NCBI GenBank assembly: GCA_030765065.1 | Contig: CM060990.1 | Location: forward strand, 415,161,198-415,225,197 | DNA from: Deroplatys truncata | Lineage: Eukaryota; Arthropoda; Insecta; Mantodea; Mantidae | Direction of reading: 5' to 3' | DNA length: 64,000 nt | Shown here: positions 1-41,900 of the stretch, piece after piece | Layout of the letters: each line of letters starts with the position of its first letter | Position numbering within the stretch: the stretch's first letter is position 1 | Notes under the pieces: model-generated | The model's input: the letters and a program-made list of their open reading frames with translations, nothing else | The model's database searches: none | What the model was told of the DNA's origin: nothing | Program-made: the position numbers and the translations under genes

Positions 1-81
1 CCTGCATAGCCTCGGCATCCTCCTCTTCTAGAAAGTGAGCTGCTATACGGCAGAAGCCATCAAAATTCACCTTCCCCGTTC
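1..81 (-). CDS. TpnC: Troponin C, internal exon (EF-hand II loop and linker), runs off the left edge
   Basis: Read on the minus strand from 81 to 1, this exon encodes TGKVNFDGFCRIAAHF followed by an acidic LEEEDAEAMQ stretch, which is the second half of EF-hand II and the start of the central linker of insect troponin C. An AG acceptor lies at 83-82 behind a pyrimidine-leaning tract. The first two bases (GA) complete a glycine codon begun by the single G at the end of the exon at 41757, giving the family-typical DPEGTGK. Troponin C is the calcium sensor of the thin filament in striated muscle, partnering troponin I and T. Loop position 12, normally Glu, is Gly here, so this site probably does not bind calcium, as in the stretch-activation (F1/TnC4) isoforms. 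The exon continues beyond the window. The match is from memory of the family, not from a search. Confidence 0.88.
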
Positions 82-802
82 CTATAACATTATAAATAAG
101 AACAGAAAATTAATCAGGCTTATTTGATTTTCACTAAGTATAACAATCAGCAACATCTATAAAGTTTACATTTCGTTATTGCGGAGTAAAGTCTAGCGTG
201 AAATTTTAATTTGCAAGCAGTCCCTCAATATATTTGCGTTTTATTCATTGTCTGTCAATATTCTTGACATTAAACCTTAAGGAAGTCTACTGACTGGAGA
301 GTTAAAAAATATCCCTTCAACAGCGAATGACAAGAAAGTGACATTCAAATAGTTTTCTTAAATGTATAAATGTGTTCGGAATTTCTACATGTGTGTAACT
401 TTCGGATGTGCTTAAGGTTGTACATATTAGCGGTGTCTTTTCTTGAAAAGTATAACTCGTAAAATTAAAAGATTCTTGATTTATTTCGCTACGCATTTGT
501 CAGCACGTTTATACAGATAATATAAATAACGCACACAAGATTCTCCCATATCCTCATCCACTTCTTGAAGCTATATCTCGTAATTGCTCATGGCGTGCCG
601 GTATTGTTGGTTGTATATTGCGGGGATTTCACGGGTGGTACAAAATTAAATCAGCTGCGAGTGTCTTATCATAACCCTTTCGTTAAAAACCCGCAGTCCT
701 AACCACTCTTACAGAAAGCCCATCTGGGGATACATGGGTCATATAGGCTACTTAACACCTAATCCTGAGGAAGTTCATGATACACGCGACGTATTATTAT
801 AC
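82..802. other. Intronic AT-rich sequence, nothing recognised
   Basis: Apart from the splice acceptor and a plausible branch-point region near 95-115 (minus strand), I see no coding or repeat structure. Confidence 0.5.

Positions 803-876
<74 letters not shown>
803..876. repeat. (TTA)n microsatellite
   Basis: About 24 uninterrupted copies of a TTA/ATT triplet. It produces a spurious poly-leucine reading frame. Confidence 0.97.
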
Positions 877-1079
877 TCACTGTGTATTAGAAAATATTAC
901 ATTAGTGATCGTATTATAAGCATACTACTTTAATAAGAATAGGTCAATTAAATCATTCAGATTAATTTAACAGTCTTAGTATACAAAATGCACATGTCTC
1001 TTAAGCTGTGACAAGTGACTAGCATTACCGAACGCTTTTAAATAAAACAACCAAAGCAGAGGCTGCAGGCCCGGCTAAA

Positions 1080-1560
1080 GATTTAATTAGAGCGTATGAA
1101 TGGATCTAACGAGCTTACTGGGTTCAACTAAAGGCCAGAGTGCAACAACCTGGCGAGACCTTGTAGGAAGAAACCATGGTGGTTGAGCGAACGATACACC
1201 GGCCTTTGATGTATATGTACCATGCATTACCTCCATGGAGGCAACCAACGCATTTATCAGTCATAAGAGACCGGGCGAAACAGCAGCTTTTACTAGCGGA
1301 ATACCGATACATCAAAGATGGCCTTGCGCCTACCCTCCTCATTGAAGCGGCAAACGATGACCAGAAGAGCTACACCGGTGCCGTTCAGAGAAGTGACAAT
1401 TGCGAATGGCGGTAGCTGCCACCGAAAGCAACAACTTAATCGCGGTAGAAGTGGAGCTGTGAGTGAAGAACTCGGATTCATACGGCCGGACTACAGGCGT
1501 ACTTCGGCAGAAGATTAGGAAAACCGCTAAGGGCCGGCGTGAAGTGGGACATGTTACCAC
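1080..1560 (+). pseudogene. Gypsy gag remnant
   Basis: Plus-strand frames here give short blocks resembling the C-terminal half of a gypsy Gag: a basic, proline-rich stretch, an alanine/glutamate-rich segment (IEAANDDQKS) and a basic tail ending near GHVTTVINFP at about 1550, where a CCHC zinc knuckle would be expected. No intact knuckle is visible. The assignment depends mainly on position directly upstream of the polymerase remnant. Several frameshifts and stops make it non-functional. Confidence 0.4.
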
Positions 1561-2029
1561 CGTCATCAACTTCCCCTAACTTCACTTGAACATCGGAACT
1601 GGGAACGGCGAGGTGAACTAATAGCATATGGATGGTTTGGGTCCGTTGTTATAAAGTTTCGTTTTAGGCGTCACACATTCCAGCTGGGCCACAACAAGAT
1701 CCTGGCGAACCATTCGGAGAAGAGGTTGCAGTTGGTGAGACTCCTTACGTGTAGAACGACAGAGAGGCCAGTGTGCGCATAGAGAACTCTAACAACAATT
1801 TGATCTTGGACGGAAAAGAACTACACCAAAATGGGTTTTACTCACTAAATGCTATTTCTGGCTTGAGAAATTAACCTAGTGCGGCTCCTTAGCGCCAAAA
1901 ATGGGAACAATATCCTGTTTAGCGAATCTGTTATGGTAAATTATGAGCCAGCTGCCTATATAACACCTACGATCGGAGACACCGATAGCCAATCGAAAAC
2001 CGCGGAACTGGATAACCCTCATCAGGTTG

Positions 2030-2710
2030 TGTTTGAGAACCTTTCACCAGGAGGGAAGGATTAGATCGTAACTTGTTAGCCGAATTCCAGCACACCTTCA
2101 GCCTATCCGACAATAATTATGGTCATTTCTATAGAATGAAGCATTGTATCGACACCAGCGATGCTCGGAAAATTATACAGGAGTTTCACCGTTTCCCGCT
2201 AGCAAAGCGGAAGGAAGTTGAGAACGGAACACAGGACATGTAGATCAAGGGTATAATACAGCAATCCGATAGACTGTGATCCTGGCCGGGAGTACTAGTG
2301 AAAAACAAGGATGAAGATCTGCGACTCTGCGTTCACTACCGGAAGTTTCATGACGTACTAAAAAGACTGATGTCCATTATCAAGGATTAATCATACCCTG
2401 CAAAGCTTGGTGGGACTCTGTAGTTATACATGCGGGGCCTGAAGACTGGATATTGTCAACTAACACTTCCTCCCGACATCAATAAGAAAGCAGTGTTTTC
2501 TTCTAAGAATGGACTGTGGAAATTCATGATAATTCCTTTACGAATTCGCAACGCCCCGCAATATTCCAGGGAGTCTTGCAGTCAGTAATGACGGTCCTTA
2601 ACTACGACGCTTTCCCACCCTATCTTGACGATATTGTTACAAGAAAAACACTCGAGCATCAGTTTGGGAATCTAAGAAAATTGTTGAAAACGCTTCGCCA
2701 AGTCTACTGA
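2030..2710 (+). pseudogene. Gypsy reverse transcriptase remnant
   Basis: Successive frames carry the Ty3/gypsy reverse-transcriptase signature: LLAEFQHTFSLSDNNYGH and IDTSDAR before the fingers, a VKNKDEDLRLCVHYRK block near 2300, the region equivalent to GYWQ...KTAF near 2450-2510, and the catalytic palm box YLDDIV at 2621-2638, followed by LEHQFGNLRKLLKTLRQVY. In a working enzyme this domain copies the element RNA into DNA in virus-like particles. At least four frame changes and several stops show it has long been dead. The catalytic Asp pair itself is intact. Confidence 0.8.
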
Positions 2711-3009
2711 AGACAAAGGCTATGACAGTATGATCTAATCTCGGATCGCCGGGCAGCTGATTTACCGCGTATTTCCTTTCCAAAGACTGTACCAGGAAAA
2801 CTGTAGCTACTGCAGGAAGGTGAAGAAGAGGCGCAAATGCGGTAGAGAAGATGAAAGGAATTTGAGAAGCGAGCACTGTGTGTCTACCCTGACGGTTAAA
2901 AGTATAGCAAACAACGTGCGCGTACAAATGTCACTCCCAGAATCCAGATTTCTAAGAGCTATTAGGCGCAGTAGAACATCCAGTTTGTCAGGAACAGTGT
3001 GCTGAAGGG

Positions 3010-3990
3010 AGCGTGGGAGTTTATAGAAGGGAAAGTGAATTTTAACATCCAGTAGTACCGATGCCTGATGTATAGGAACTTCTTGAGGAGGCCCATTCCA
3101 GTGCTATCGCAGGGCACCTTGGAGTGAATAACACCCCAAAGAAGATGTGTCAATGATTTTGTTGGCTACAACGGCCAAATGACGTAGAGTGTGGATGCCA
3201 AAAATGCTACATTTGTGCTATAATCGTGGGCCCCAAACACGCAAACGGGGCGGATTGCTATAGTACACTTACAAACGTCCTTCGAACGACTAATCACCAA
3301 CATGGAAGTCCCTCTCTCTAGGCGAGACGCTGAATATCGCTACCTATTACTGTGTATGTACAGTTTCGGTTCTTACTGACTTGTTGCTGAAGAACCTCTT
3401 CTGTCGGTTCTGTGGACCAATTTAGAATCCAACCTCATGCAAGATCTCCTGCAGCACCTCGAGATGTACAACTCTCCTTCATCCCCAGTAGAGCGGGATA
3501 ACGGGACATTACACCAACACGATTGAGGACTCTTCTGGAAAGTTGTATTAAGCCATCAATGGGTTTAGGAGTGTGGAGTTGTTTCTCCTGTGCCAGGAGA
3601 AATAGCTGACATATGATCTGTTGTTTGGTACGCCCCCTGATGCTGACCAACCGGAAAACATTACGTCGGGGTCGTGATGTAATGGCTAGAAGACATCTAC
3701 GATCTCTCCAGGGAGCACCTGAAGTTAGCCAGCTAACGGCTGAAGGCACTATATGACTGTTTGGCGAACAGTGCCGGGTTACAGGAGGATGACTTCGTAT
3801 GGCTTTATCGTCCCATGAGGGCTAAAGGGAAGTAGCCAAATCTGCAACCTTCTTGTGACGGCCCGAATAAGGTGAACACCTAGATCAACGTAGTGGTATT
3901 TAGTATCCCCATTAAGAATCAAGGGAAGCTGATGATGGCGCACCCTTATTGTCTTGAGCTATATCGCAGAATTCCTCCGGATGACCACCA
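3010..3990 (+). pseudogene. Gypsy integrase remnant
   Basis: The zinc-binding HHCC domain is visible near 3085-3230: AHSSAIAGHLGVN, then CQKCYICA. The catalytic core is scrambled. The C-terminal part returns near 3630-3990 as LLFGTPPDADQPEN and DDFVWLYRPMRAKGK, ending in a HPYCLELYRR motif matching the chromodomain-proximal tail of gypsy integrases. Integrase normally joins the element DNA to the host chromosome. Multiple stops and frameshifts interrupt every block. A reading frame of about 84 codons at 4013-4267 lies at the element's 3' end and is not recognised as protein. Confidence 0.7.
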
Positions 3991-4390
3991 GCTCTGAGAA
4001 GCGAGCTATGTAATGGAATCTTATCCGGCCTTCCGCGCCGTGGATTCCAGGTGCCAACCGGAACAATATTTGTTGGAGAGAGAAAGGGGGGAAGAAATTC
4101 CTCTTTCTCAAAATGCCTGGAAAGTTTATCAGGATTTAAGCAGCAACTTTCAGACCTCCCCTTCCTCTCCTTCTAGTGAAACTTTGCGAGGTTCGGGACG
4201 GTATAAAGGGAGGGATCACCGCCATCAGAGTTGTTCTTATAAGATTCAGTCCACTGCTGTCTGCTGATCACTCAACGAATTCTTACCTGCGTGAGGCTAG
4301 AGTACGAGTTCGATGCTCAACGCGTCAGTGAGCGGTAGGAAGAATTAAATTGATATTTATTTATGGACGCTCTATAACTAAATAACTACT

Positions 4391-4634
4391 ATGGTTCTTA
4401 GCATCCCATTCTATACTGGGCGTGAACGGAAATGTTGCTCTGAAGCTTCTTTAGCAGGCTTGAGGTTCCTTACGTATCATAAATCTACGGCATGGAACAT
4501 CCGTTTTACCTCCCTTCTGTAGGAAGCCATGTTAAGGATTTTAAGCCCGAAAAAATCCATCGCCCTCCGCCGAGTTTGAACCCGCGATCTTGGAAATTGG
4601 AGGCTAGCATTGTACACCTAGACCACGCAGGACG
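4391..4634 (-). mobile_element. tRNA-headed SINE, family A, copy 1
   Basis: On the minus strand, a tRNA-like head with box B GGGTTCAAAC is followed by a body containing TAGATTTATGATACGTAAGG and a tail CAGTATAGAATGGGATGCTA. The same order of blocks recurs at 11722-11961 and 56678-56920, which defines a family of about 240 bp. Confidence 0.75.
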
Positions 4635-5459
4635 ATACGGTCGGAAGAGGGAAGTGGCTAGAAGGTGAATGCTGCTTTTGACATATAAGTGTGCGACAGG
4701 AAGACAGAAGAGGCTGATTTGCTCGTCGTCCATTGCAGCTCTAAATGCAAGGAAAAACTAAAGAGTGACTACGGGAAAAGCTGATGAAGTCATGATATCT
4801 GGACAGAAATATATTTTTTTCCTCTATGAAGATGTTCGTAAAGTGCACAATTAATACGTATATGGGCATAACGAGTACTTTATCATGGTAGCCGTGTCAA
4901 CATTAACCAGAAATTTGTTCCTCTGGTAAAGATTTAGAAAAGGCAAGTTTGTGTTTTCAGCCGAAGATGGAAACCTAATATCTGTATGCTTATCTTTATT
5001 ACAGCATGGATTATGTACAATATCAAAAAGGTAACTTTAATACAGTCTTTTCAGTACATTTGAAAAGGGGCAGCCATTTGTCGCACTTAGGAAACACCTG
5101 ATCACTCTTTTGAAATTACAACTTAAGATTTACAAATGACTTCAGTATTAGCTTCCTGGTTACCATCTGCGTATTTATTTCCTTTATATCTTTGTGTTTC
5201 ATCTGAATAAATTGATTATGACAGAAAGCTAAATCTAGTGTTAAAAAGTAAATGAAGCATTTGTTTGACTTGGTTGTGTTCGCTTCTATATAACCTTTTT
5301 TTTTCTGATATGGCTTTTAAACTAATTTCCTGCACTTTTCGCTCTTGTTTAACGCATGCTTTGTTTCTCCAGAGTATTTCATTATCTTTTTTGTGTTTTA
5401 ATGCGGATAATTTAGCCATTGCTTAGCCTTGGCTGACATACAACATACTTCACTTTATC
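4635..5459. other. No feature recognised
   Basis: AT-rich intronic sequence. A 67-codon open frame on the minus strand at 5216-5419 has no recognisable domain. Confidence 0.4.
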
Positions 5460-5508
5460 ACAGGAAACCCCGGGACTCACTTAGGGAACGGGATTGGTGT
5501 AAGCCGTT

Positions 5509-5820
5509 GTGCAGACCTGCCTTGGTTCCATAGGCTTCCAAACTAGTGCCTGTGCTGAACACGTTTCTCCTCTACTGGTTACTGCACAAATTGTAAAATC
5601 TTTCACAATACCAGCCTCAACCTCGGATTCAATCTCTGGAGTAGTTATCGATCTCCCCAGTCACCAATGCTCTATAACTCGTTCATGGGTCAATCTTGCT
5701 TTCATTCCAGAACTCGAACAATCTGCTCCAAATCCGCTAGCAGCGATGGTGGCACAGAGGGATTTCAGATTGTTGGACATCCTAAATAGGGATGCAGCCC
5801 TATTCGAAAGAAAAAGATGA
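5509..5820 (+). pseudogene. LINE ORF1 C-terminal remnant
   Basis: An open frame of about 100 codons (QTCLGSIGFQTSACAEHVSP...) ends in a basic LLDILNRDAALFERKR tail. It lies about 100 bp before the start of the endonuclease, the usual place for the end of ORF1 (a Gag-like nucleic-acid-binding protein). No zinc knuckle is visible. The assignment is by position and composition, so it is tentative. Confidence 0.35.
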
Positions 5821-5920
5821 AGGTCAACCGACCCACTCCGCCTAGTAAATAACCGATCATACTTTGCTTCCTTCCGGCGAGCGCTTACGAGACATTCCTT
5901 TCTTCCTGGCTTTCATTATG

Positions 5921-8250
5921 AATCCTCATTGGAATATACGTGGTCTCGGCACAATGAGCAGAGTTGGATAGGCTACAGTGTACTCATTCACCCCTAGTCG
6001 CCTGTCTGCATAAGATCATGCTTCGCCCTCAGGAGACTTCTACCATTCGTAGATACATTGCGGAGCTCTTCGATCTTGCACCGGAGAAAGTTTCTCCTGC
6101 CTACAGGAGTGTTACAATTCTTATTCGAGATGACTTGTGTTAACATCGTGTTCCGCTCACCACGCCTCTGCAAGCTGTTGGGATACATTTATCCCCTTCT
6201 GGGTTTAGTTACTCTGTCTGTAACTTCGTTTTCTTCCTTCTTCTTCTCTTGCACAGGTTAAACTCGTGTTATTGATTTTACAGCACCCTACCTCTGATAT
6301 GCCTGGGGGAATTCATTTCGTATCACTCTATTTGGCGGACCCTAAGGCGTGCGCGAGGGAAGGGGTTTTGTCTAGTTTTCTGCATCAACATCACTTTCAG
6401 TTCTGAATACCGGCGAATCCACTTTTCTCACCGATTTCACCAGCACATTTTCCCCTCTGGATGATAGCCTCTACTCTGCATAGCTTACTCACCGTTTGAA
6501 ATGGCATGCCATTGCTGATACGCACTATAGCAATAATTTCCCATGTGTGGTTAGTCTACTGTCATTCCATGTATGTTCCATTGGCCTCCCTTAATGTCGG
6601 TTATGCAGTCTGACCGGTTGCTCTTTCCCCGTCTGACCCGAATTTCTCATTGCGAGATATGCACAGCGGACCTCTTAGTGGAGCATCTAAATCTGTAATT
6701 TTAACTCCTTCGTCTACGTCTTTCCACCCCAGACGTTTACCGGTTCCTTTGTGGGCCGGAATATACGAGAGCCGTTTGTGTAAGAAGGGGTGTTTTTCGA
6801 AAGTTTAGGTGTTATCCTACGCTCGATAATCCAGTGAATTATAAACAACTACGCGCCAGGGCTCGTAAGATAATTTCCAATAGTAAGAAAGGCTTCTGGG
6901 AGCCCTATGTAGCTGGTTTCCATTGCTCTGAACCTAAATCTCTTGTTTGCTACAAAATTAATCGCATCGCCGGAGAACTCTGTTTGCTTCTATCCACGGT
7001 CTACGGGTGGACACTGATACTTCTTTTGAACCACCTGCTATTGCTGACGCCCTAGGCAAAACCTCGATGGCATCTCCAGTTCAGCTCGCTATCATCCGAC
7101 TTTATTTCTCACAAGGTCACGGTGAAAGCTCATGCAACGTCATTTGCTTCAGCACCACGAAGAGATAACAGACCCTTTACCTTTCGCAAACTAGAGACAC
7201 CTTAGTGTTTAACCATTCAGCTTCTGGTATTGATTCTGTACACATTGTGTTCCCCCAAAATCTTTATTCAGCGAGAAAGCACCTTCTCCTTTAGATCTAT
7301 AACCGCATTTGGCAACCTGGAAATTTTCCCACTAGTTGTATCTATAATTTTAACGAACGCATGCGCAACTGACGTTTGACATGGTGACTTGAATATCGGT
7401 AGCTTCTAGCGAATCTCTTACCGACGTGACGTTCTTCTTTGCAGCTATGCTTATTATTTAGCCAGTATACCGATGCACCCGGCCTACTCACACCCAGATA
7501 TTCCTTTCAGTCTTGATTTAACGTGCATGCCGAAGTCCAGGACACCAATCCGGTCCTCCGTGTAGCTTTCGCAAAGATTTCGTTGCCATTTTGTGAGTGT
7601 TTATTTATACGGATGCTCAAAGTATGATCATAGCGTAGGATGTGCCTTCGTGTTTGGTGTAGAACGTTGTCTACTGTTTCTCGGAGCAGTGTTCAATTTT
7701 TACTGCTGGACTCCTTGCTGTGTAGCAAGCAGCTTCCGAAATTGAGATTTGTGTACGGACACAATAGTCTTTGGTGATGTATGCTCAACATTCCATTGTG
7801 CAGCGTAACCAGTATTTTACTCAACTGCTTACCAATGCTGGATTAAGCTTATTATTTGCTTGGGTCCCTGATCAAGTTGGCATACCCGGAACTGAGGCCG
7901 CTGTTGCCGCCGCAAAGGATGTTCTTTTATTCCCGAGATATTTTAACTCTTATGTTCATGCGGACGATTTTAGTAATTCTCTATGAAGGGCCATACGATC
8001 TCGTTGGTGTAATGAGTGATCCTCTATTCAGGGTAATAAGTTACGTGATATAAACTCGCTCCCTCTACCTGGAATACGTCTTCTTTCCGACATTTCAGTG
8101 GAGAGGAGGAGGTCATTTTATCTCTCTTCGCATAGGGCACTGTATTTTTAACCATCGTCATTGCTGCGCGAAGAGCTGGTACCCATTTGACATCGTTGTG
8201 CCACATCTTTAACTGTGCGGCATGTTTCAGAGGAGAGTCCGTTTTTAGCC
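5921..8250 (+). pseudogene. Jockey-type LINE ORF2 remnant (endonuclease, RT, RNase H)
   Basis: The copy opens with NPHWNIRGLGTMSR near 5920-5960, equivalent to the QWNIRG start of the APE-type endonuclease. At 6800-7010 it has YPTLDNPVNYKQLRARARKI and a long in-frame stretch matching the endonuclease-RT linker. At 7590-7930 an RNase H region is readable, starting VFIYTDAQS and ending FAWVPDQVGIPGTEAAVAAA (family norm: WVPGHVGI.GNE). A degenerate C-terminal cysteine region follows near 8190-8250. In life this protein nicks chromosomal DNA and reverse-transcribes the LINE RNA at the nick. Many frameshifts and stops make this copy inactive. It lies antisense to the troponin C gene. Confidence 0.72.
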
Positions 8251-8560
8251 TTTATTCGTTGACCCTTGGACTGGGGTACTGCATTGCCCACCATTTTTGC
8301 GGATGACCTATTGGCTTTATGGCGTGTTTAACCTTTATTAGACGCAGCAGTATGCTTGCCAACATTTGACTTGTGTTCGCGCTCCTTGTTTGCCTCTTTT
8401 ATGTGCTTTAGACCAGGTTGCTTCCACTACTTCGATTTCAGATTGGCGTTCTTCAGCCGCTGACACTATGTACTTTAATTTTTTTGGCTGTGTTTTATGT
8501 TTTATTCTATTGCTTTAAGCATGCTACTATTTTAGACTGACTTTTTTGTATCGCAATTTT

Positions 8561-9435
8561 TCTGTTCGTTTCCGTTTTTAACTTTTCAAGGGTGCTAATG
8601 TTCTTTCCGGTTTTGCGTCCTAAAACCCCACTTTACTCATTCCACAAGTAACATGGATTTCATAGCGTTCCATCTTCTGTTGTCTTTTATTAATGACAAA
8701 TATTTAATGAGAATATTTTGGATCCTAACTGCCGTAAAACTTTTCGGTGGTAATATTCTTAACAGATGAAACACATGTGAAAGGAAATTAATGTCATTAA
8801 ACTTAATTCTCAAAAGAAAAATTTCAAGCAAGGGTTTATTCACAAGCAATACTGATTTTCCGCATAATTTAATGTACACATATCTTATGGCAAATATTAA
8901 TTCTAATTATTTGAAGCAACTTTACTTTCTCGTAATTCAAATGGAATACTGTTTAACTCAAAGTAAAAAGATTTTGCTTGCTCACTTTTAGAGCAGATGA
9001 TGTATGGATGAAATGTAACTGCTATGTCTGCTACAAACAGTGTTGGTGATACCACGATATTAAAACATTGGGAAATGGCTTTCTTTTCCATACACTCGGA
9101 TTTATAGTTCAGCATTTAAAATCGTTTTATTCTTACCTAGTATACTTTGTGCAGTTGGCAGTATTTTAATCGGTTATATGATTATGTGTTTAATACACCT
9201 CATATACCACAGTGTTTCATGCTTAAGCTTTGTCCATATTATTGACTGCTAGCAAACCAGTATGTGTTGAAAGAAGTGTTCATTCAATGCACTCTCTGAT
9301 TAGTATAATTATAATTAATTAGGTGAGCTGGTTGAATTCTGATTAATATCTTATTTCCAATCGTGACACCTGTTCGGTCGCCATTTTATTACAGTATAAT
9401 TTATTTCCCCTCTCACCCGTCAGTGATCACTATTA
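8561..9435. other. No feature recognised
   Basis: AT-rich sequence with only short overlapping open frames on both strands. Confidence 0.4.
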
Positions 9436-10060
9436 TACCGAGCGGTATGGCTCAGGCGGTAACTTCTGTGGCCCGCATTCGGGAGGTCTTGGGTTCGATT
9501 CCCGTGGCCGATCTTACTGAGTCGTGATTTTTTCGGGTTTTCCCCGGGTTGCCAGGTAAATGCTGGGTAGGATAATTCTATCCCCCGAATTTCCTCTCCC
9601 TCCATTTCATTTCCATTCTCATTTCACTTCACCTTTCATCTGCTTGGCTTCTTTCAGGGTTGTAAGTGTCGCCGGGAGATTTCGGTGTGTACATGACAGG
9701 GGAGGAAAATGCTGTGTGGAAACATTCGTTCTCCTGACTGTGAGCGGTCTCCGAGCTCCGACCTCCCAGGGGATGTGTAAGCAACAGTCTGCATCCGGTG
9801 AGTTCAAATCTGTAAATGGTAGGAGCCCTGCCCTATGCCTGTCGTGCCTCTTGGTCCGGCCGCCCTGTGTCACCTCATCCCTCCCTTCCGGGGGCGCCCA
9901 TCATGGGCATAGGCACAAAAGATCTGCGTAGATCTAGGGCTAAGTCCCCCTCCGCTTCTAGTCCTATCCTGGCGCTGGTATTTATTGCATTGGCGCTCAC
10001 ACTACGTTACATAACACGGTTCCGTTGGCTGCTGAGGTTACTCTCGTTACGCCATATTTA
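9436..10060 (+). mobile_element. tRNA-headed SINE, family B
   Basis: A tRNA-like head spans 9436-9510, with box A TGGCTCAGGCGG and box B GGTTCGATTCCC. The body contains a GGGTTTTCCCCGGGTTGCCA block and a pyrimidine-rich stretch (9580-9640). The sequence to about 10060 is clearly more GC-rich than its surroundings and may be the rest of the same element, but that end is not defined. Confidence 0.65.
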
Positions 10061-11721
10061 GTGGCACGATCATAAACCTCCACCGTGCGCCACAATAGTG
10101 TTTAGATATGCTACTCCCGATCCAGGGTTCGTTACCAAATTCTTCCTTGTTATGACTGTATAAGAATAAACCAAGGATACAGTATCCACAACAACACGAC
10201 TAAAAATGTTGTTGCTTAATGGGTTTTACCAAAATTCTCATATAAGACCATAAAGGTGCCAATATACGTACAAATAAATGAAGTATTAACAATAAACACA
10301 ATTAAAATTATTGCTAATAATTCGCTTTAACATTTCATTCAATAGCTACTTATCTGTTGTCTATTTTGGTCTGGAATCTGCAAATCCACATGTGCTCCAC
10401 TGTACACTTACGTACATCTAATGCACTATGGCCCCTTCGAGCATTATAAAATAGGAATGTCCTAAACCACACATTCTCCCATAGTTTATTCAGATGGAAG
10501 CAGCTCTTAAATCTATATAAGCAACTGGATAGAGCTGGCCTCTTAAAAAAGAGTAACTCCCTTGCCTAATTACTTTAATTTGCGCATTACACGAGATCAA
10601 AATAACCTCGTGATATTGCTCCTTACATTAATAAAGGTATCTAAATCCACGTTTACTTCAAAATCATGCAAATGCAAAGTACTATAAGTGGCTTCGAAGT
10701 TAGGCGTTAACTTTATGTTACTTTCTGTTTTTACAAAACGTAAATATAACAGCAGTACTGCTCGTTCACTCTTAACGGTAATCCTTCTTATTATGTAAAT
10801 ATCTCACATATTGTAACGTTTATTCAGATTAACCTACATTTCAATCATGAGATTTCACGAGGTATGTGGTCAGTTACACTGCCAGGGCTGTCACAGTGCG
10901 AATAAAGAAATACTTGTCCTTCCTTTTGGATTTCCATTACTTTTATTCTGATCAGAGAATTACACTACACTGAACCATACAGCACTTCACATGTTTTGGC
11001 GGAAATGATAACACAGACGACACAGCGTCCTAGAACGCTGCTACAGAACCCCATGAATGACCACTCGTTAGGACTAATCTCCTTCACACACACTACTACT
11101 GCATCGTAAAAAGTTCCTAATCGGCGTAAGAATTTACCATTTCACAGCTTCACCTCTTGAAATCCACAACATACTCGTGGTGGACATTTTCTCGCAAACT
11201 AGCACAGCGTAGCTCAGACATTCAAAACAACCCAATGAATGTTAAACAACTGCCCGAATGACTGACTCTGCTCTGTTGAACTAACTCGGATACATGCTGG
11301 CTTAACATGATCTCGAACTTCACTCGAACCGTCTCGTACCTCGGCTGAAGTACCTCACCCGGGAATTGACTTTGACATCCGATTTGTGTTGTTATTATAT
11401 TTCCCTAATCTGACAGAAAGTGAACCTAATCTGACTTTGACTGACCTCGAATGTCACCCTGCATACCCTTGATGACCTCTTACAGATTTTAACAATCAGA
11501 CAACGTTACGCCTCTTACCAAGTGCACCAACCTGAGAGCTACAATTCCACTCTGGCCTTCCGTGGCACTCGAACCTTCGAGGGAGAAGTAAATGTTATTC
11601 TCGGGTAACTATTTTCGTTACACAAATCACTCTCTGAAAGCTCCAAATGTTTCTCACCAAGGGACAATGTAATATGTTACCGTACGCTCATGTTTAAAAT
11701 CAGCCAGAAAAATAAAGGTGC
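10061..11721. other. No feature recognised
   Basis: No conserved coding blocks on either strand. The segment 10900-11640 is less AT-rich than its flanks and rich in short ACTCGAACC-like words. It could be the end of an unidentified retroelement, but nothing proves it. Confidence 0.35.
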
Positions 11722-11961
11722 TACATAATTCTCATCGCTATGGAATTCGAGATCGCGGGTTCAAATCCGGCGGAAGGCGATCGGTTTTTTTTCGGGCATA
11801 AAAATCCTTACCATGGCTTCATTCGGAAAGGGGAAGTAACGCCGAAGGTCCCGTGTCGTAGATTTACGGCACGTAAAAGTACCTCCAGCCTGATATAGAG
11901 GCCTGTTAGCAAAATTTCCGGCCTTTAACGCCCAATATAGAATGGGTAGCTAAGAATCATA
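11722..11961 (+). mobile_element. tRNA-headed SINE, family A, copy 2
   Basis: Box B GGGTTCAAATCC is followed by the ATCCTTACCATGGCTTC and TAGATTTACGGCACGTAAAA blocks and the CCAATATAGAATGGGTAGCT tail shared with the copies at 4391 and 56678. The 5' half of the tRNA-like head is shortened. Confidence 0.78.
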
Positions 11962-14347: not shown

Positions 14348-14389
14348 TGCAAACAAAAGCTGCAAGTGATTCAGTGATAGATATTTAGA

Positions 14390-26210: not shown

Positions 26211-26214
26211 TATA

Positions 26215-31196: not shown

Positions 31197-31922
31197 GAAT
31201 AAATGTAGCATACTGAAAAAATATGCAACCTATCCGCAAATATTAACAGAATGTTTACAAAGATTTTCTATACACATAGCGCTACTAAACGAAAAATATC
31301 TAGGACCCGTGGGCCACTTTTCGGTCCCATGCTGTGGCCCATATAGATGCGACAGAAATGTAAGAGTCGTAAGCACCGCTATAGTAAAAGAAAAATAAGG
31401 CAACACCATCAACTTTTAATACCATAGCTAAAGCGAATGGATGTTACAGCAGTAAACGTTAGATGTCATAATATAGAGGTAACGTTTATAGCCGCTTACA
31501 ACCCCTCTGGCGATAGACACACGGACAGCCTATACACGCTAATACGATTAGAACGTAAAGTAATAGCTGCAAAAAACCTTAGTGCAAAACACCTTCTCGG
31601 GAACTGCAAAATGACCAGCATTCTATGTAATAAAATATTAACTTACATTAGCATTGCCACCAGTGTTTTAACTGGACCGGACAAAAACAACATTCATATC
31701 GAGAGCAGAAAATTACAGTTCCGACATACTTGACATTGCACTACTCAAAGACATGCCCTTCAACACATGCGTAATAAACAACTTGACCTTAGATCTCCTC
31801 CCAGTGTTACTGGAGATAGAAGCCCCATATAACGTTCAAATGCGAGCCTGTTAGGCTTAACTATATACAAACTGAATGGTCAGCCTTTGAAACAACGGTG
31901 GACTGCTTAATCGAAGTAGCAA
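31197..31922 (+). pseudogene. Jockey-type LINE endonuclease, 5' part
   Basis: The copy reads FSIHIALLNEKYLGP (endonuclease motif around the catalytic Glu), then VTAVNVRCHNIEVTFIAAYN, RLERKVIAAKNLSAKH and SDILDIALLKDMPFNTCV, which are the successive conserved blocks of an APE-type LINE endonuclease. The catalytic NETY-like box is altered to NEKY, and GDLNAKH is altered to KNLSAKH. Stops and frameshifts break the frame near 31398, 31733 and 31853. It ends at the piggyBac target site. A functional version would nick target DNA to prime reverse transcription. Confidence 0.75.
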
Positions 31923-31941
31923 TTAACCCTGCTGTTATCTT

Positions 31942-31960
31942 TGGGTCAATATGACCCGAC
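31942..31960. repeat. Subterminal palindrome GGGTCAATATGACCC
   Basis: This palindrome near the left piggyBac end recurs at 32119-32135 (GGGTCATAATGGCCCGA) and near the right end at 33742-33760 (TCGGGTCATTATGACCCGA). Confidence 0.85.
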
Positions 31961-32368
31961 AAGAAATATATCTTTCTATTACTAATTTAAATTTGATAGC
32001 TGATACTTGTAATTTTATGCATTTCTTTCTCTTCATATGTACTACTCATAAAACCTGAATTTTAAAGAAAACTTACATTTGTTTTTTTATAATTAAAATT
32101 GTTACACTTGTGTTCTTTGGGTCATAATGGCCCGATTGCTTTTAAAATGAATTTTAACATTTTTTCCATTAAGTTTCATGTCGCACTGTATCTAAAGCCA
32201 TATGTATGTCAATTCACACAACAATATAGCAGCCAATTGCTTTTGTAACAATGGGCAATACATTGTTGATGAAGTAAACGCAGGAGAATACATATCAGTT
32301 ACATCTGATTGACTGTTGAAGGAGGATATAATTTTACTTATCACAGTGAGTGGTGAAATGCTTTTATC

Positions 32369-33516
32369 ATGGCAAATCGTTGCCCTACCGAAAGTGAATT
32401 GGAAGCTTTTGACAATGTATCTGATAGTTCGGAGGATATTTCAGAAGACGAAAACCATACTAGTGAAGGTAGCATTTACCCTACGTCGGAATCAGAAGAT
32501 TGTTCTTCAGACAATGATGATAGAAGTGACAATTTTCAAAATGTGGAAGTGTTTCAGTCGAAATATAAAAACATCAATTGGAGTTTAGCAGCCTTTCCAT
32601 AACATGGAAGAGCATCCAGAGTAAGAGATATAAAATCTTATTTTCAAGGAATTATGAACAAAACACTTTGCAGTATTGTACTGAAAATGACTAATACTGA
32701 GGCCCGAAGAGTGTACGGTGATAAATAGGAAGATTTAGATGAAATTACCTTAGAAGCATACATTGGTGTACTATTTCTAGCTTGTGTTTATAAATCATAT
32801 GGCGAATCAACAAGAAGCTTGTGGGATCCAGAACGAGGTGGAGCCATTTTTCCTGCTACAATGTCACTAAAAAGTTTCTTTTTCATTTCTTGAGTGTTAC
32901 GTTTTGATGACAAATCTGATCGACGGGAACGGAGAGCAAATGACAAACTAGCACCTATAAAGGACTTGTGGGAACAGTCGGTGGAAACACTTGCAAAATT
33001 ATACAATTCTGGATCAAACTTAACGGTTGATGAGCAACTGGTGGGTTTCAGAGGTCTCTGCCCCTTCAATCAATATATTCCAAGTAAACCCGCCAAATAT
33101 GGAATAAAAATTTGGACACTATGTGACAGTGCTACTTCATAATATGCTCTGAAAGCACAAATGTACACAGGGAAACCACCAGGCATAGCACGTGAGAAAA
33201 ACCAAGGTATGCGTGTTGTCATGGATCTGACTTATGAGCTAAGAGGACAGAATGTTACATGTGATACTTTTTTTACACCCTATGTATTGGGTCAAGCACT
33301 TCTCAAAAGAAAACTCACAATTTTGGGGACATTGAGAAAAAACAAGGCTGAGCTCCCTAATTTATCAAGCAAAGAAGAGGTCCACAGTTAAAAATTCTAT
33401 TTCAAAAAAGATACCACAGTTGTATTCTATTCTCCAAAGAAGAATAAGAATGTTGTAAGTTATGATAAAGGTTTTACTTCAGAAAAAATGAATACTCTTC
33501 ATTTATTTATAATTTG
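32369..33516 (+). pseudogene. piggyBac transposase, C-terminally truncated
   Basis: One plus-strand frame holds the protein throughout, interrupted only by stop codons (about 32600, 32726, 32891, 33140 and 33389). It starts ANRCPTESELEAFDNVSD with the acidic N-terminus typical of the family. It has the first catalytic Asp in LTVDEQLVGFRG (about 33022-33057), followed by QYIPSKPAKYGIKIW, and the second in the VTCDTFFT block (33253-33276, usually ADNWFTS). After PKKNKNVVSYDKGF the sequence runs into the right end, so the third Asp and the cysteine-rich domain are absent. It therefore cannot move itself. The lack of frameshifts suggests point mutation after the truncation. Confidence 0.88.
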
Positions 33517-33805
33517 ATATTTTTTCTGAAAATACATTTATCCATTTTTATTTTATTGTATATTGAGACATGCTAATTAAAAGGAAGGAAAAAATATAAT
33601 TATATTCAGTTTCTCTGACTGTATTTCGTCCAATACCAAAGTTACATTGCATAGTAGTTCTTAAACGGTATTAAGAAAGAATTAAATGCAATTAAAAGAC
33701 ATAAAAATGTTTCCTTAACAGATATATTAGGATTTTTTTTATCGGGTCATTATGACCCGAAGGTGAAAGAGTGTAAACTATTTTTAAGGAGAACAGAAGG
33801 GTTAA

Positions 33806-35535
33806 ACAAGCAACAGAACAATACGTTCCCGTTAGGCACCGAATTACAGCAGCTATAGCCTTCCCTCGCAACACTGGATTAATAATTTAAGGAAGAAGCC
33901 GCGCCGGAGTAAAATGGCAAAAATACGGAAACTTTATATATCCCAAAGAGTACATGGAACTATGGACTCAATCTAGTGAGCTTATTCAGAAATTTACCAG
34001 ATACGTTATAAGTCTTCGACCCACAAAACCAGACCATTTGGAACATAGCCAAAAGCTGCACGCGAACTTACACACACCTACTGACCCCTCTATACAACAA
34101 ACCAAATAGCTGAAAGTACCCGAGACAAGGCAGAAACTTTTGCATATGTCCTTACAGAAGTGTTTAAATCGAGTGCCGTTCCGTGCGAACATCTATTTAT
34201 GAAGGAAACAGAAGCAATGGCAGATATGATAGGAAGAGTGCAGACACGCAAAGAAATGCTTAACACAAATGCAAGGTAAATTAAGTGCATCATACCGCAT
34301 CTACTGAAACACCTTCCGATTAAAGTGTTACAATTGATAGTATGCATCTTCAATTATGCAATAGAGAAACGCAGCTTCCCTCACATTGGGAAAGGCAAAA
34401 TTACTATTCTTTCCTAAACCGCATAAAAAACCAGTATTTACCCTAAAATTGCAGACCCATTTGCTTATTAAATACTATGAGTAAAGTGTTATAGAATATA
34501 TGACTAACACGCATTAGCACACATATCAGAAGTAGCATGCTCATTAGTAAGCACTTTGGATTCAGAGCACAGCACTCGACAACATTACATCTCCGAATTA
34601 CAACAAGAGGGTTTTACATGAAAATATCATCTGGAGCTATCCTTTTAGATACAGAATACGCCCTTGACCGGATTTGGCATTCCGGTTGACTCAAAATAAC
34701 TTATCTGTTTGGAATATATGGACTCTATTAGCTAAAAGGCTACCTAACAAGTAGATCACTCTGCACTGCAGTCAACAATGAAGTCTCATCATGACGCCCA
34801 ATTAGGGTGAGGTCTCCCAAGAAAGCCTACTAGGAGCTACAGTTTTTAATCTACATATAGACCATGTACCAGAGACCGCAAGGGTAGACAAGTATGCATG
34901 TGCTGATGATACGGCATTCGTTACAGAATCAACAACACTACGTATAATACAAACAAGGTTAGAAAACGCACTTAACACCCTTCAGATATGGCTCATGAAA
35001 TGCAGAGTATAAGTAAACGCTAGGACAGGTAAAGACCGATAATATATACAAAATGACACACTCATTGTCACAAAAGCATGGACTGCATCCAGTTACATTT
35101 ACACTGAAGACTATCGAATAGAAGACCCAGGTTACCTAACTAGGTAAAACAATGAACCAGAGTTATCCATGAAAGCAACACATCAACTTTGAAAGAGCCA
35201 AAGCAATCGGACAACTAGACAAACTGCCCAATTATAAATCCCAACTGTAACTTAAAGTTAGAAATGGGAATAACACTTTGTAAAATACTAATTAGACTAA
35301 TTCTTACATAAACTGCTCCATATGGAGACATAATGCTAAAAGGCGTATTAAAAGGCTCCAAAATGCAAAATAGAATACTTTCCATCATTGCGAGATTATC
35401 GGAAGTGGCACCGGGTTACTTGCTACATAAAGGGTTAAAAGTGCATTTCATAAAAGAACATATGGAATATTTCAGCTGTAATCTACACGAGAAATGGAAC
35501 TATCACAATGAACTTATTAGAGCAGCAGAGGTCTA
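33806..35535 (+). pseudogene. Jockey-type LINE reverse transcriptase, 3' part
   Basis: Immediately after the piggyBac it resumes with KQATEQYVPVRHRITAAIA, then WQKYGNFIYPKEYMELW, HLPIKVLQLIVCIFNYAIEK, HFGFRAQHSTTLHLR (fingers/palm), LDTEYALDRIWHSG, the catalytic CADDTAFVTES near 34890-34930 (usually YADD), and a C-terminal block KLEMGITLCKILIRLIL with RILSIIARLSEVAPGYLLHK. No RNase H is readable. Frameshifts and stops are frequent. It lies antisense to the troponin C gene. Confidence 0.8.
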
Positions 35536-35560
35536 AGACATTGCTTATGAAAAGCACCCA

Positions 35561-37295
35561 CGTTAATATCCCTATTTGAGAGAAACATATGTATCGGGAG
35601 TCGGAAGTTGGTATACAAAAATACTTTGACAACTTAGTTATATGGTTATCTACACTTAACTACGAGCATTCACACATATACCACACAGTTCATTAGGAGC
35701 AGCAGTAGCCTTCAAGCTCTTCTGCTACACGGTCAATGCCATGCCGTGGAATGAGGACCTCCTAACATTTACCGCTCTAGTGTAGCTAAGCTGTTATACT
35801 GGGAGGACTGCTTATTGGTGTGGCCACCTAAGTGCCACTGGCAAAATAAATGACAAGAATTGGCACCTTAGAATAAATAAATAGTGTACATAATTATATT
35901 GTAAACGTATATATAAACACGTGTAAACAGGGGCTACATTCGAAACTGCATAGTTTACCTTAAACTATGCATGATAAGTTTTGAGATCAATAAACATGAT
36001 GCAAAACTCAGTGTGGACAAACGTAGCTGCAAACCGCAGCCATGCGATTAGAGGTAAGACAACGCAGTGTCATTGATGCAACCCAAACGGCAAAGTACAA
36101 AAGCCAGGTACTCATAATTTTACACATCTGCCACTAAATATTTGAGTCTACCGGTTAACAATGCAGTAAAGAATAACAGAAACTTTATACCAAAGTAAGT
36201 GGATAATAGTGGCTAGGTACGCAGTAAATGGGTAGTACGCATCTTTACGTCCGATGTTCAGGTCTCTAATACACACCACACCAGAAATCTTCTATACGCG
36301 CTAATTAAAGCACATGGATTACCCCAGGCGTGACGCTGGATGTCGGCTGAGAAAGTTGAAAGGGCCTATTGCATGCGTACTGCTCTTCCATGCACTGCAT
36401 GGGAGCCCTTCATCTTTCTCCACCAACTACTGGGGTCCAAAGTGGTACCCAAACACCTATCTCCCATCACTGTCCTGCATGCGGTATACTATTTACGTTA
36501 GGAGGCGATGTAGAGCTTTCTTGGTTGATCGCCACTCCGTGATCCCGCTCTCCCCCGTTATTGGTTAGAAAAAGAAAGTAGTTCATAGGTAAATACACTC
36601 AACGCTCTTGCATTCGTTACCATCAAAAGGTTCACATGTGCATGTATTGTGAGTTGTCACCTCACCTAAAACCAATGCATGGAACTAGCGTTATATGGCT
36701 TGAAATCAGTATAATTTACAGTGGACGACATTTTGCTATATACGCATATCCTCCGGGTATTTCACAGGACTTTGCCCACCAGCAACACTCATGAATTAAC
36801 ACTCGACGCATTGGTGCGCAATACCTGCCAGAATTTCCATCATTCGATCTATTAATCGAGGTGCCAATGCAGGCCGAGACAAGGTACGTCAAAACAGTAC
36901 GAAAGATCAAGATTAATCTTCTGATTCATTCTCTTCCTTCTCCTCCTCCTCCTTTCCTTCTTCCTGAGATTTTCATTTTATCATAAGCATTCTATGTGTA
37001 ATATTCAGTTCTGGTTAGCGGTACAGCAACTGAAGTTTAGGAAGTTTTTAACACTTGAATGACATTATTAGGCTTATATATAGATCAGTATTAGTGAGCA
37101 TTTTTACTGCATAATTAAAAATTAATATTTATAGCGTCAATACAATTAAAAGCTGCTGTTTTATAACATTTAGGTTTTTAATAAACCCTTCAGGTTACAA
37201 AACCTAATTGTTAAAATAAACAATATTACTAGTAATACTCATACCAGAACAATGTACAATATAAGCTTGATTAAAAATTCAGAGTTGTGAACATT
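35561..37295. other. No gene recognised; one polypyrimidine tract
   Basis: The open frames at 36314-36568 and 36716-36910 match nothing known to me. A CTTCTCC-rich tract lies at 36930-36966. Confidence 0.4.
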
Positions 37296-37500
37296 GAATC
37301 GGGTAGGTGAGTTCATTAAGGCACGCGCAAGTAAACGGAAGATGTGCGGTTCAAATAGCAAAAGGGTGGTCGTCCCAGATTGTGGGTTTTGTGTTTGTTT
37401 GTCCTCATAACTGGCTAATGCCGGGGAGGTACGTTGAACTTAGGCCGGAAACGTTTCCTTCCTAAACTTCCTTTCCCAATTATCACTTCATGTCTCAACA
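37296..37500 (+). mobile_element. Possible tRNA-headed SINE, family D
   Basis: GGTGAGTTCATTAAGGCACG resembles box A and GCGGTTCAAATAGC resembles box B, about 35 bp apart. A unique body including GATTGTGGGTTTTGTGTTTG follows. Confidence 0.45.
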
Positions 37501-37535
37501 ATGTGCACCGCTTGCGGTACAGTATGCAGTAAGAA

Positions 37536-39685
37536 GTGGCGTTAAACAGTACTCATAAATATTTTCGAATGTGTTGTTTTACGTTCTCAACCCACACCAC
37601 TTGCACACCCAATCCTAAGGTGAGTTATACAGCACCATACGACAATCACACTCTGCCGAGCTTTTGTACCAATGTGAAACCTTCACAATTGTTTGGTGAC
37701 CGAGAAACCGATCGCTCTTCTCAATCTTATGTACGTCGAGGTCATAATACAGCTGAGAGGTTTGTAGAGTATCTAACTCTTCTTGTAAAAACATCAGTCA
37801 AATATATAAACCTGCAGTTATTGAAAATGACAGATGAACAAAAAAAAATATTCGGACTCATCTGCTGTATGCTACTTGTGTGATAAAGAGTTCACAGAAA
37901 CACAGCTAAAACATAAGAGAATGTAATCATATCAGTATATAATATCGTGGGAGCCTACATAATAGGGGTGTAACCTAGCTTGTACAAATTTATATTATAT
38001 TCCAGTTTTCATGCATAATCTGAGTGAATATGCTTCACATTTTGTTATTAGTCAGTTTGGTTCACACGTGAGCGATTAGGTATAATTACGAATTCAGAGG
38101 AAAGCTACATTTCATTCTCGAGGTATGTTGGTGATATCAAGCTTAGGTTTGTATACGGGTTTCTGAGCAGAAGCCTCGATAATTTGGCAGAAAATCTAAT
38201 ACCATATCCTTAAATACTGCAGTACTTCGGAGAAAAGAAGTTGAGTTTGATGGCACATAAGGGAATATTTCCGTATGATTACACTGCTTCATGGGATGCA
38301 TTGAACGAGAAACAAATTACCTTCAGAGGAGGCGTTGTATACAAAAGTTAATGCTCAAGACCTTGAACATACTATAAATGTATGGGAACAGTTCAAGACG
38401 GGAAATTTTGGTGAATGCAGCTATGTTTACCTAACCTCAGATGTTTTTATAAACATTCATAGACAAAACCCTCTAAACTCATAAAGTTATCAGGCAGATT
38501 ATTTCACATCTCCTGGACTTGCGTGAGATGCCAGGTTTTTATACATAGGAATTGAGCACGAGTTTCTCAATTACGATTAGTTAACTAGTTGGATTACAAT
38601 CAGCTTCTCATGGAGGAATCTGTTATAGGAGGTTTATGTCAGTGTCCTCACCCTTACACTAAAGCTAAAGGCTGGCACACGGAACAGTTTGATGATCAGA
38701 AACATCCTCAATATGTTATATACGAACACTAAAATTAACATTATGGACGAGCGAGCGCCGGGGTAGCACAGTGGTTTCATTTGCGAACTCGTACTGCGGA
38801 TCCGGGGTTCGATTCCCGTATCTGGAGTAGCGATTTTAAGTCGACTCTATCCACGCCTTCACCTCTGATTTGCTCATGTGAAATACCTCCATGCCCCAAC
38901 GTGGTTCGCAGTCCTTAGTAAAAGCAGTAGATACTCTGATTCCAATGCCGTTCTCATAATCACCCTAGCATCGGAGGCAACGAATTCCGTCCGCTGGGTA
39001 CCTCCACCTTGTAAATGAGTCCAGTCATCGCTTGCTGGAAGCTCATCCCCGAAGGTCATAGGCCGTATCGGGAGTGTTAGAAAGGACGATGACGTTATGA
39101 GCGGTACTTCATGCATGTTCTTATGGCGGATTTCAGTGTGTTTCTCCAGAAGATGCTCACTTAGATTCGCTAGCACAAGATGATTCTCTCGAATATATTT
39201 TAGGAATTGATGTCCAATATTCCTCAGAACTCCATGACCTGTATCATTATTTACCTTTCCCGCCAGAGTGCATGAAGCCTAAGGGGTCGTCTTCAAATAA
39301 GGCAATTACTCATCTTGGAGGTCGAACTCGGGAGAGGTGTGTAGTTTATTATATGGTCGTGAAACAAGCTCTTAGTCGTAGAAAAGTACTATCAAAAGTT
39401 CTTGGTACAACACAATTTCATCCGTCCTTGTGGTTAAGGTCTTACGCTGAGATTCATAAGAATGTACGAAAGCATGCTGAAATTGATTTTGAAAGAGATT
39501 TATGTAAGCTATTTAATACTGCAGTTTCTGGAAAAACCATGCAGAATATTCGGAATAGTATAGACATACATCTTGTGACGGACAGTAAGATGGTAGAAGA
39601 GCTCCTAGCAAAACCAGCATTTATCGATAGCATCATATATGGATTTAACCTAGTGGCTCTTCATATGACTTTACGTAAAGTCTAA
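37536..39685 (+). pseudogene. Polinton/Maverick-type DNA polymerase B remnant, plus strand
   Basis: A protein-primed family-B DNA polymerase is recognisable in order: ERFVEYLTLLVKTSVKYINL (37760-37815), YLCDKEFTETQLKHK (37868-37915), MHNLSEYASHFVI (38013-38050), SLDNLAENL-like residues (38170-38200), FPYDYTASWDALNE (38270-38310), the YFTSPGL-like block (38500-38525), then after a SINE GFQCVSPEDAHLDSL and GIDVQYSSELHDLYHYLPFP (39205-39263) and a 137-codon frame with FERDLCKLFNTAVSGKTMQN (39490-39550). The DTDS motif and C-terminus are absent. Many frameshifts and stops. Such polymerases replicate large Polinton elements. No integrase or capsid genes are visible next to it. Confidence 0.8.
38753..39120 (+). 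mobile_element. tRNA-headed SINE (family E) inside the polymerase remnant
   Basis: The head CCGGGGTAGCACAGTGGTTT (box A) and GGGGTTCGATTCCCG (box B) lie at 38757-38820, followed by a SINE body. It separates two adjacent conserved blocks of the polymerase, so it inserted after that element. TTATGG appears on both sides (38741-38746, 39121-39126) and may be a short target duplication. Confidence 0.68.
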
Positions 39686-39904
39686 AGAGTAACGCGTTCA
39701 GTTAACATAACCAAAACAATCATTTTTTCTTTTAAACTTAAGTATAATACACAGTATCAATTACAAGGAGAGAGTAGATCTCTGACACCTGCTGGATAGC
39801 CGAGACTGCAAACCTCGCTGGTATACCAAGTTGAGAGTTTACAAATAATGTTGTAGTTAATTTACCGGAAATATACTATGACTAACCAAATACCGATACA
39901 CTCC

Positions 39905-40910
39905 TCTGCAGATCAGCCACATATAAAGCCACATCTCTCTAAGGCAAAACCAAAAGTCAATGTGTCATATTAATTGACCTGAATGAACAACTGTGCTTTC
40001 TTGCTTTCCTGGTTAAAATAGCATGTACAGCTAAGATATACATCCCAACTAGTGTGTTAGTTTAGGACAGGTTAGCTTTTATTGGTTTAGATTACTTACA
40101 TTTCTCACCGATCAAGTATTATTTATATGTTAATATGTAAGATTTAATGACGTTATAAACCGGTTAGGCAAGTTTACCCTGATCATCCTTACCCAAGTAG
40201 ATGTAACAATTCTGTTAGATCATCTCTGCAATATGATACTACAAAGTATGTTGTGGTGTTAATGATCGACTGCTAGCGTTCCTGTTTAGCATAGCATGTA
40301 TACCTAAGACATCGATTCCCATCTCGTGTGTTAGGTTATGTTAGCTTATGTAAGGTTAATTTCATTTTTTGCTGGTGAAGTCTTATTAATAATGCAGGCT
40401 AATGTCATTGTCAATATTTCAGGTGAAGTTACTCATCATTATTCTATCCCAACTAGACTTAGCAACACTCTTACATAATTTATGTAAGATGACACTACCA
40501 ACCATGCTGTAAAGTTTATGATTGACAATGCGTTTCAGCGGCATTCCTGTTTAGCATTCCATTATATACAAGACATCTGTCCTATCTCGTGTATTAGGCT
40601 GGTTCTGTGTGAACTCATAAATGGAGACTATCTTACTCTCTCCTACCTCTACCTAATTCTCTATAAATTTTACCATGTTGCACACTGATCTCCACCTCAT
40701 CCCAAGTCTTTCATGTTTCCTTCCTTAGAGTCGTCATCATCACCTTCATCATAACTTAGATATCATTATCCTACACTTACCTAAACACAACCACCCGCTT
40801 ACAGATCTGTAAGACTACAAAACAAGGTGTCAGGTTTATGATCGCCTATAACTTCTAACTTATGGTTAGCCTGATATACATACCTACGATATCAGGTCAA
40901 TATTCGAAAC
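39905..40910. repeat. Degenerate tandem repeat, period about 270 bp
   Basis: A block like TTCCTGTTTAGCATAGCATG...CATCTCGTGTGTTAGG occurs at about 40012, 40278 and 40547, with a faint fourth copy near 40860. Between them lie related TCATCATT...CCAACTAGA...TGTAAGATGA segments. Spacings are about 266, 269 and 310 bp. Confidence 0.65.
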
Positions 40911-41756
40911 AGTATGGAAGCACGGAATTCAAGAACAGCTCATTTGAAACCGTGTTAGACTGATTGAAAATAAAATTACAAAGGGATATCTAACGTACAA
41001 ATCCAACTGTGAACAATATTCCGTGTTTGTCAAGAACGCTGAACTAGATATTCCAGAGGTTCTGGATCGTATATAGTGCTGTTGAATTGTTATTCAGGTG
41101 GCTTAAAAGATTCATTCGTCGATAAATGCCTTCACTTACGAGCTCATCGTTTGTCAATAGCTAATGAACTAAGCATAACAGTGGAACTCAGTCGTTGAAC
41201 TGGACAGAAACGTCTCCAAATTGTGATCCTAATGAAGACGTTACTCTGCGCATGCTTATGTGCGCAGCTGTTAGTAATATCCAGCGGAGCACTCTTCCTC
41301 AACATTTAAGTATGTTATGAACTATCTACGGTCTTGAATGAACGAGGATACGAGGATACTACGTGACTCTTCTTGCCATTGAGTCCGATCTAATCTGCAG
41401 TATTTTTGTTTTTATTTGGTCATTAACGACTTTGCAGCTCAGAGGCCAAGCCGAGTTAACGTTTAAACCTGCAAAAGAAGCCATAGTCGTATAGTACACA
41501 AGTTAGTGATATTTGTTTTTCTACAAGCGCATAGAGGGGCGACAAATACACGAGTGTCTTTGGGCAGGAAGCTTCCAAAAATTAGCCTAATTACGGTATC
41601 TAAGTGTCACATAACTCCTGTGCCTGGGTCATTAGTTTTGCTAGCTTTTCACCCTCAAAATCCTTTTTGTTATGTATCATTTAAGTTTTACTTTGCATGT
41701 TAAAGCAATATATTTCCTTGTCACAAAGCATTTTGCATACAGTGAAATATACTTGC
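40911..41756. other. Intronic sequence next to the troponin C donor
   Basis: No repeat or coding block was recognised. The GC donor and its GCAAGTATA context are at 41756-41748 (minus). Confidence 0.45.
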
Positions 41757-41900
41757 CTTCTGGGTCTGTTTCATCAATGAGGGCCTGTAATTCATTGTCA
41801 TCAAAGAGTTGTCCCATTGTGTTGAGTATGGTGCTGATCTTCATTGTCTCAATGAACCCGCATTTTTGAGTATCGAACATCTGGAATGCTTTGCGCATGA
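41757..41900 (-). CDS. TpnC: Troponin C, internal exon (EF-hand I and start of II)
   Basis: The minus strand encodes MRKAFQMFDTQKCGFIETMK then ISTILNTMGQLFDDNELQAL and IDETDPEG, which matches insect troponin C closely, best the TnC4/F1 type (KISTILNTMGQLFDD). The exon is exactly 144 bp with phase 1 at both ends: a pyrimidine-rich tract ending TTTTTCAG before 41900, and CAGAAG|GCAAGT after 41757. It has no stop, frameshift or damage, unlike everything around it. EF-hand loop I (DTQKCGFIETMK) lacks the usual acidic ligands and probably does not bind calcium. The downstream exon is at 81-1. The upstream exon with the start codon was not found, and it may be a very short exon or lie beyond the window. 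Confidence 0.95.

Follow-up and report, generated by a model that had tools for sequence, protein, structure and literature searches.

The locus described here raises the question of whether two short coding segments that lie 41.7 kb apart belong to one troponin C (TnC) gene and, if so, how the sequence between them would be removed from the transcript. The window, i.e. the whole stretch of 64,000 nucleotides that was analysed, comes from the mantis Deroplatys truncata and corresponds to C16:415161198-415225197 in an assembly of 4,289,915,091 bases and 818 contigs. It does not contain any N. A preliminary description had read the window as the inside of an insect TnC gene, filled by a single intron rich in transposons, the size of which would make accurate splicing a puzzle. 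Our analysis, which is based on genomic sequence, makes it very probable that the locus is part of an insect-type TnC gene, in which two exons, here termed A and B, would be joined by the removal of a 41,675-bp U2-type GC-AG intron. The label "insect" derives from the resemblance to insect TnC and from the size of the genome.

The two exons and the intron between them

The features that define the gene within the window are the following:

41901..64000, minus strand: region that precedes exon A and probably belongs to the previous intron
41757..41900, minus strand: TnC exon A, encoding EF-hand I and the first part of EF-hand II
41751..41759, minus strand: 5' splice site AAG/GCAAGT (exon/intron), with a GC donor
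82..41756, minus strand: EF-hand II intron, GC-AG, 41,675 bp
82..120, minus strand: 3' splice site TTATAG and branch-like CTGAT, whose A (114) lies 33 nt before the end of the intron
1..81, minus strand: first 81 nt of TnC exon B, encoding the rest of EF-hand II and the linker

Exon A (41900-41757, 144 nt) is directly preceded by the strong acceptor TTTTTCAG, ends with GAAG and has phase 1 at both ends. The first base of exon B is position 81, which follows TTATAG, and the exon opens with GAACGGGG. Phase 1 of exon A matches phase 1 of exon B, and the codon split between them encodes the glycine in ...DETDPEG-TGKVNFDGF.... When joined, the two exons encode 75 residues that are recognized by the Pfam models EF-hand_9 (E 1.7e-12) and EF-hand_7 (E 7.3e-10). 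Residues 3-72 align with calmodulin-type chains, and in the five alignments listed they do so without any gap through the junction; therefore, no residue is missing between exons A and B. Coordinates, reading frame and EF-hand matches agree with the preliminary assignment of 41900-41757 and 81-1 to consecutive parts of TnC, and the exact phase fit across the EF-hand II loop was found as described there. The reading of the window as the interior of an intron holds for positions 82-41756, but not for 41901-64000, which lie upstream of exon A. When the two exons and three EF-hand proteins were used as tblastn queries against the window, the best hit outside exons A and B had an E of 0.17, and hence no further EF-hand exon was apparent, neither a duplicated nor a mutually exclusive one in the intron.

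Further information on the intron is provided by related genes in the same genome. A search with a Drosophila-type TnC yielded at least 35 matches; 23 of the 35, together with one from another search, were grouped by position and strand into the window gene and seven sister genes. Stop codons were present in three of the grouped matches of the genome search, while the exon-sized pieces contained none. The 12 matches that were left out comprise calmodulin-type loci on C12 (1) and C3 (2) and distant matches on C2 (2), C5 (5), C7 (1) and C13 at 49.78 Mb (1). The sister genes, all of which have an A-B-C exon layout, and their homologous introns are:

C6, 134.99 Mb: one gene, intron of about 5.2 kb
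C13, 22.5-22.9 Mb: five genes, introns of about 5.9, 3.0, 6.4, 4.2 and 12.3 kb
C13, 50.19 Mb: one gene, intron of about 19.9 kb, versus 41.7 kb in the window gene

The loop II intron is found at the identical place and in phase 1 in all seven sister genes, which indicates that it is old; its position is ancestral to the TnC family of this genome, as seen in all eight grouped genes. This same-position intron also supports the single long intron, the TnC identity and the exon pairing that had been proposed from the window. The sister genes resemble the window gene in exon layout, in the phase-1 loop II intron and in their sequence identity of 56-67% to it. They differ by having GT donors and shorter homologous introns, and six of the seven retain the glutamate at position 12 of calcium loop II. 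The five genes at C13:22.5-22.9 Mb are located on one strand and are 80-92% mutually identical over the exons compared.

The GC donor and the removal of the intron

The one small oddity of the locus is its GC donor. The intron combines a GC donor and an AG acceptor with U2-like flanks and a branch-like site, as judged by the consensus for U2-type GC-AG introns. In a survey over several kingdoms, such pairs make up about 1.07% of the splice-site pairs examined, provided that the respective column refers to GC-AG, as we read it (PMC7072748). With an approximate matrix, the donor flanks score 8.79 out of a maximum of 8.87. Because the seven sister genes all carry GT, the donor of the window gene would have changed from GT to GC, and the near-perfect remaining flanks would compensate for the C at position +2. 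Alternatively, a sequencing error or an allele could account for the GC. The nearest GT, located 4 nt downstream of the donor, scores -0.64, and its use would shift the frame, with a stop codon following only a few residues later. A GT with flanks as good as those of the GC donor was not found in the sense strand of the intron; since it was likewise absent from the antisense strand and from nine out of ten shuffled sequences, this absence is uninformative about selection. Strong donors (two in sense versus six in antisense and five to seven in five shuffles) are too few in number to be used. According to one study, human GC-AG introns, and also the inner ones of mouse, are on average shorter than GT-AG introns (PMC7242645). 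The window intron shares with GC-AG U2-type introns the GC donor with strong flanks but differs by its length, and, when set against these averages, a long GC-AG intron appears a little unusual, albeit as a sample of one.

Recognition of the intron would probably occur through exon definition over the 144-nt exon A. The simplest account, as we infer, is that exon definition acts together with a strong GC donor, because the intron shows neither a recursive site with a pyrimidine tract nor an excess of loose sites. It is rather unlikely that the 41.7 kb contain an additional non-homologous or very short exon, or that they are removed stepwise via zero-length recursive sites. Such stepwise removal has a precedent in Drosophila, where 63% of the introns longer than 40 kb carry a high-confidence recursive site (PMC6110457), and the sense strand of the window intron contains four loose YAGGTRWGT sites, e.g. 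near 40783 and 16972. The opposite strand, however, contains three of these loose sites, and a ratchet site with the required pyrimidine tract is present on neither strand. An additional exon is difficult to reconcile with an A-B junction that has lost no residue in comparison to calmodulin, and under the thresholds set here the sense strand contains one pseudo-exon, which has no open frame.

We consider it very improbable that selection maintains the GC donor because it acts as a splice switch, slow or regulated, which together with the 41.7-kb intron delays or tunes TnC output. The two genes that lack the position-12 glutamate of loop II possess the longest homologous introns (41.7 and 19.9 kb versus 3.0-12.3 kb). 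If a splice switch of this kind existed, a TnC without an N-lobe calcium site would be made only in certain muscles or stages.

The rest of the gene and its relationship to other EF-hand proteins

In the genome, exon A occupies C16:415202954-415203097 and exon B occupies C16:415161198-415161278 and extends past the window edge to approximately 415161157 (...EELKEAFRLYDREG). A C-lobe exon, which was located by similarity to a TnC sequence, is present at about C16:415153791-415153922 on the same strand, approx. 7.2 kb past exon B. Paired EF-hands are thus found in both lobes, in the N-lobe by the domain models for exons A and B, and in the C-lobe by the exon that follows on this contig in the same orientation. 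The TnC gene is intact across the three exons seen.

Searches for the terminal exons had no positive control and failed equally in the sister loci. No convincing first coding exon was found in the 122 kb upstream of exon A, of which 22 kb lie inside the window and 100 kb beyond it, nor was there a convincing N-terminal exon in the sister genes within 19.8 kb upstream for the C6 gene and 1.0-1.5 kb for the other six. The best-scoring candidate, 109.5 kb upstream, was dissimilar to a TnC N-terminus and was rejected. Two pattern searches for the last coding exon, covering the 10-kb locus L029 and the approx. 1.5-kb flanks of the sister genes, did not find one. The terminal exons that were not found and the GC donor could be taken as signs of a dead or misassembled copy with a non-functional intron. 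This is very unlikely, because the three exons are in order on the same strand of one 707-Mb contig, their frames are open and their splice-site flanks are present, and N is absent from the window and from locus L029.

In an alignment of 133 columns, gaps excluded, the C13:50.19-Mb gene shares 67% of its residues with the window gene, and the values for the other six sister genes are 56-62%. The identity to a row for the calmodulin of the same genome, part of which was entered by hand, is 38%. FastTree, with one calmodulin-type locus each from C12 and C3 as outgroup, placed the window gene and the C13:50.19-Mb gene in one clade with a local support of 0.976. Linker residues are kept in the window gene where calmodulin shows a three-residue gap, and the window gene is nearer to the TnC genes, a family named here by an insect TnC yardstick, than to calmodulin. 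The linker of the C13:50.19-Mb gene shows a one-residue gap in the alignment. Although the best 60 of 369 matches of the joined exons among solved structures are all calmodulin entries, the derivation of exons A and B from a calmodulin-like gene is highly improbable, as it conflicts with these identity values, with the linker residues and with a loop I that, unlike in calmodulin, lacks the position-12 glutamate in the window gene and in all seven sister genes.

The preliminary description had anticipated that a protein search would return insect TnC, and among the matches listed this was observed for exon B. Among its 19 matches to solved structures, Lethocerus TnC (chain 2jnf, which we take to be the F1 isoform) ranked sixth with a weak match (E 0.047), after four centrins and a calcineurin-B homologue. 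The joined exons gave no TnC among the best 60 of 369 matches. Naming the gene by solved structures alone was abandoned, since calmodulins, centrins and the calcineurin-B homologue outrank TnC. A 20-residue query had no match among the solved structures, the joined exons had none in NCBIfam, which is a prokaryote library, and a text search of the literature for a TnC peptide found no paper.

The calcium loops of the eight genes differ at position 12. In loop I, this position is occupied by K in the window gene and the C13:50.19-Mb gene and by M in the other six genes, while in loop II it is G in the window gene, S in the C13:50.19-Mb gene and E in the other six. Loss of the loop I glutamate is common to all eight genes and loss of the loop II glutamate is confined to the pair. 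As in F1-type TnC, the N-lobe of the protein encoded by the window gene would probably be unable to bind calcium, because loop I and loop II both lack the position-12 glutamate, a loss expected of that type. For loop IV, the first 11 residues were read; the 12th falls in the next exon, which was not located. The closest described functional type is the flight-muscle F1TnC of Lethocerus, in which one calcium ion is bound, namely by EF-hand 4 (PMC4965559). The likeness consists of the N-lobe loops of the window gene that lack the position-12 glutamate.

Transposable elements and the length of the intron

The window contains 147 stop-to-stop ORFs with a length of 75 amino acids or more, of which 78 lie in the intron, 68 are located upstream of exon A and one overlaps with this exon. 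Pfam models were searched in 60 of them, 38 from the intron and 22 from the upstream part. Transposon-type domains were present in five of the 38 intron ORFs, two had weak matches to non-transposon domains (8640-8906 and 39101-39682) and 31 had no match. The elements in the intron are:

13303..14347, plus strand: Tc1-like transposase remnant, HTH_Tnp_Tc3_2 and DDE_3, two ORFs above the cut-off
15630..16031, minus strand: reverse transcriptase remnant, RVT_1, 29.0 bits versus a cut-off of 29.6
22034..26214, no strand assigned: DNA transposon in two truncated head-to-head copies, 22034-24763 and inverted 26214-24767
32894..33139, plus strand: piggyBac-like transposase fragment, DDE_Tnp_1_7, E 1.2e-17, above the cut-off

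The two copies at 22034-26214, in which DDE_3 reached 17.2 bits versus a cut-off of 28.6, belong to the same family as the element at 52747-55468 (73-79% identity in blastn) and have TATACCAGG-type ends. Four elements are thus supported in the 38 of 78 intron ORFs, two of them above the cut-off, one just below and one weakly. The earlier count of at least fifteen transposons was not reproduced in these ORFs. Further elements may be present among the remaining 40 intron ORFs and in non-coding repeats.

Several other repeats were observed in the window. The copy at 52747-55468, upstream of exon A, is 2.72 kb long and likewise carries TATACCAGG-type ends. Immediately next to it, at 51429-52744, is what may be a mariner-like element; its inverted ends measure approx. 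39 nt, and its Transposase_1 match stayed below the cut-off. Inverted repeat pairs number 29 in the whole window, while the three shuffled controls yielded 4-6. One of the 29 pairs, near 51429-52744, is flanked by direct repeats of 2 nt or more; since a single pair in one control out of three was flanked in this way as well, this duplication alone is no evidence. Further upstream of exon A are pieces of a piggyBac-like transposase (58276-59325) and a retroelement that encodes both an endonuclease and a reverse transcriptase domain (59807-62763). At 49396-49610, a 43-bp unit is repeated in tandem, in about four degenerate copies. The ORFs at 39101-39685 and 50628-50864 presumably resemble the protein-primed type B DNA polymerases of Polinton-like elements, a reading that received no support from Pfam or NCBIfam. 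The window contains no tRNA and has no Rfam match above the gathering score.

Because transposon remnants lie inside the intron and shorter introns occupy the same place in the sister genes, the intron would probably have grown by transposon insertion in this 4.29-Gb genome. An intron of 41.7 kb is long for the TnC family but ordinary for a genome of about 4 billion bases. In a locust study, the mean intron length is 11.12 kb, the upper quartiles for leader introns are 34.6 and 46.4 kb, and the authors favour exon definition for these leader introns (PMC8011201). Introns are longer in a stick insect as well, where they lengthen the gene models (PMC5691397). The window intron is inside the range quoted for locust leader introns and does not differ in kind from these long introns. 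Insects with large genomes thus commonly have long introns, and the splicing puzzle that had been drawn from the size of the intron is therefore weak (PMC8011201, PMC5691397).

The finding leaves current understanding unchanged. Eight duplicated genes have retained an old intron at the same position, with lengths that differ approx. 14-fold, and one donor would have changed from GT to GC. The locus thereby offers a convenient case for comparing how muscle genes of insects handle transposon-swollen introns.
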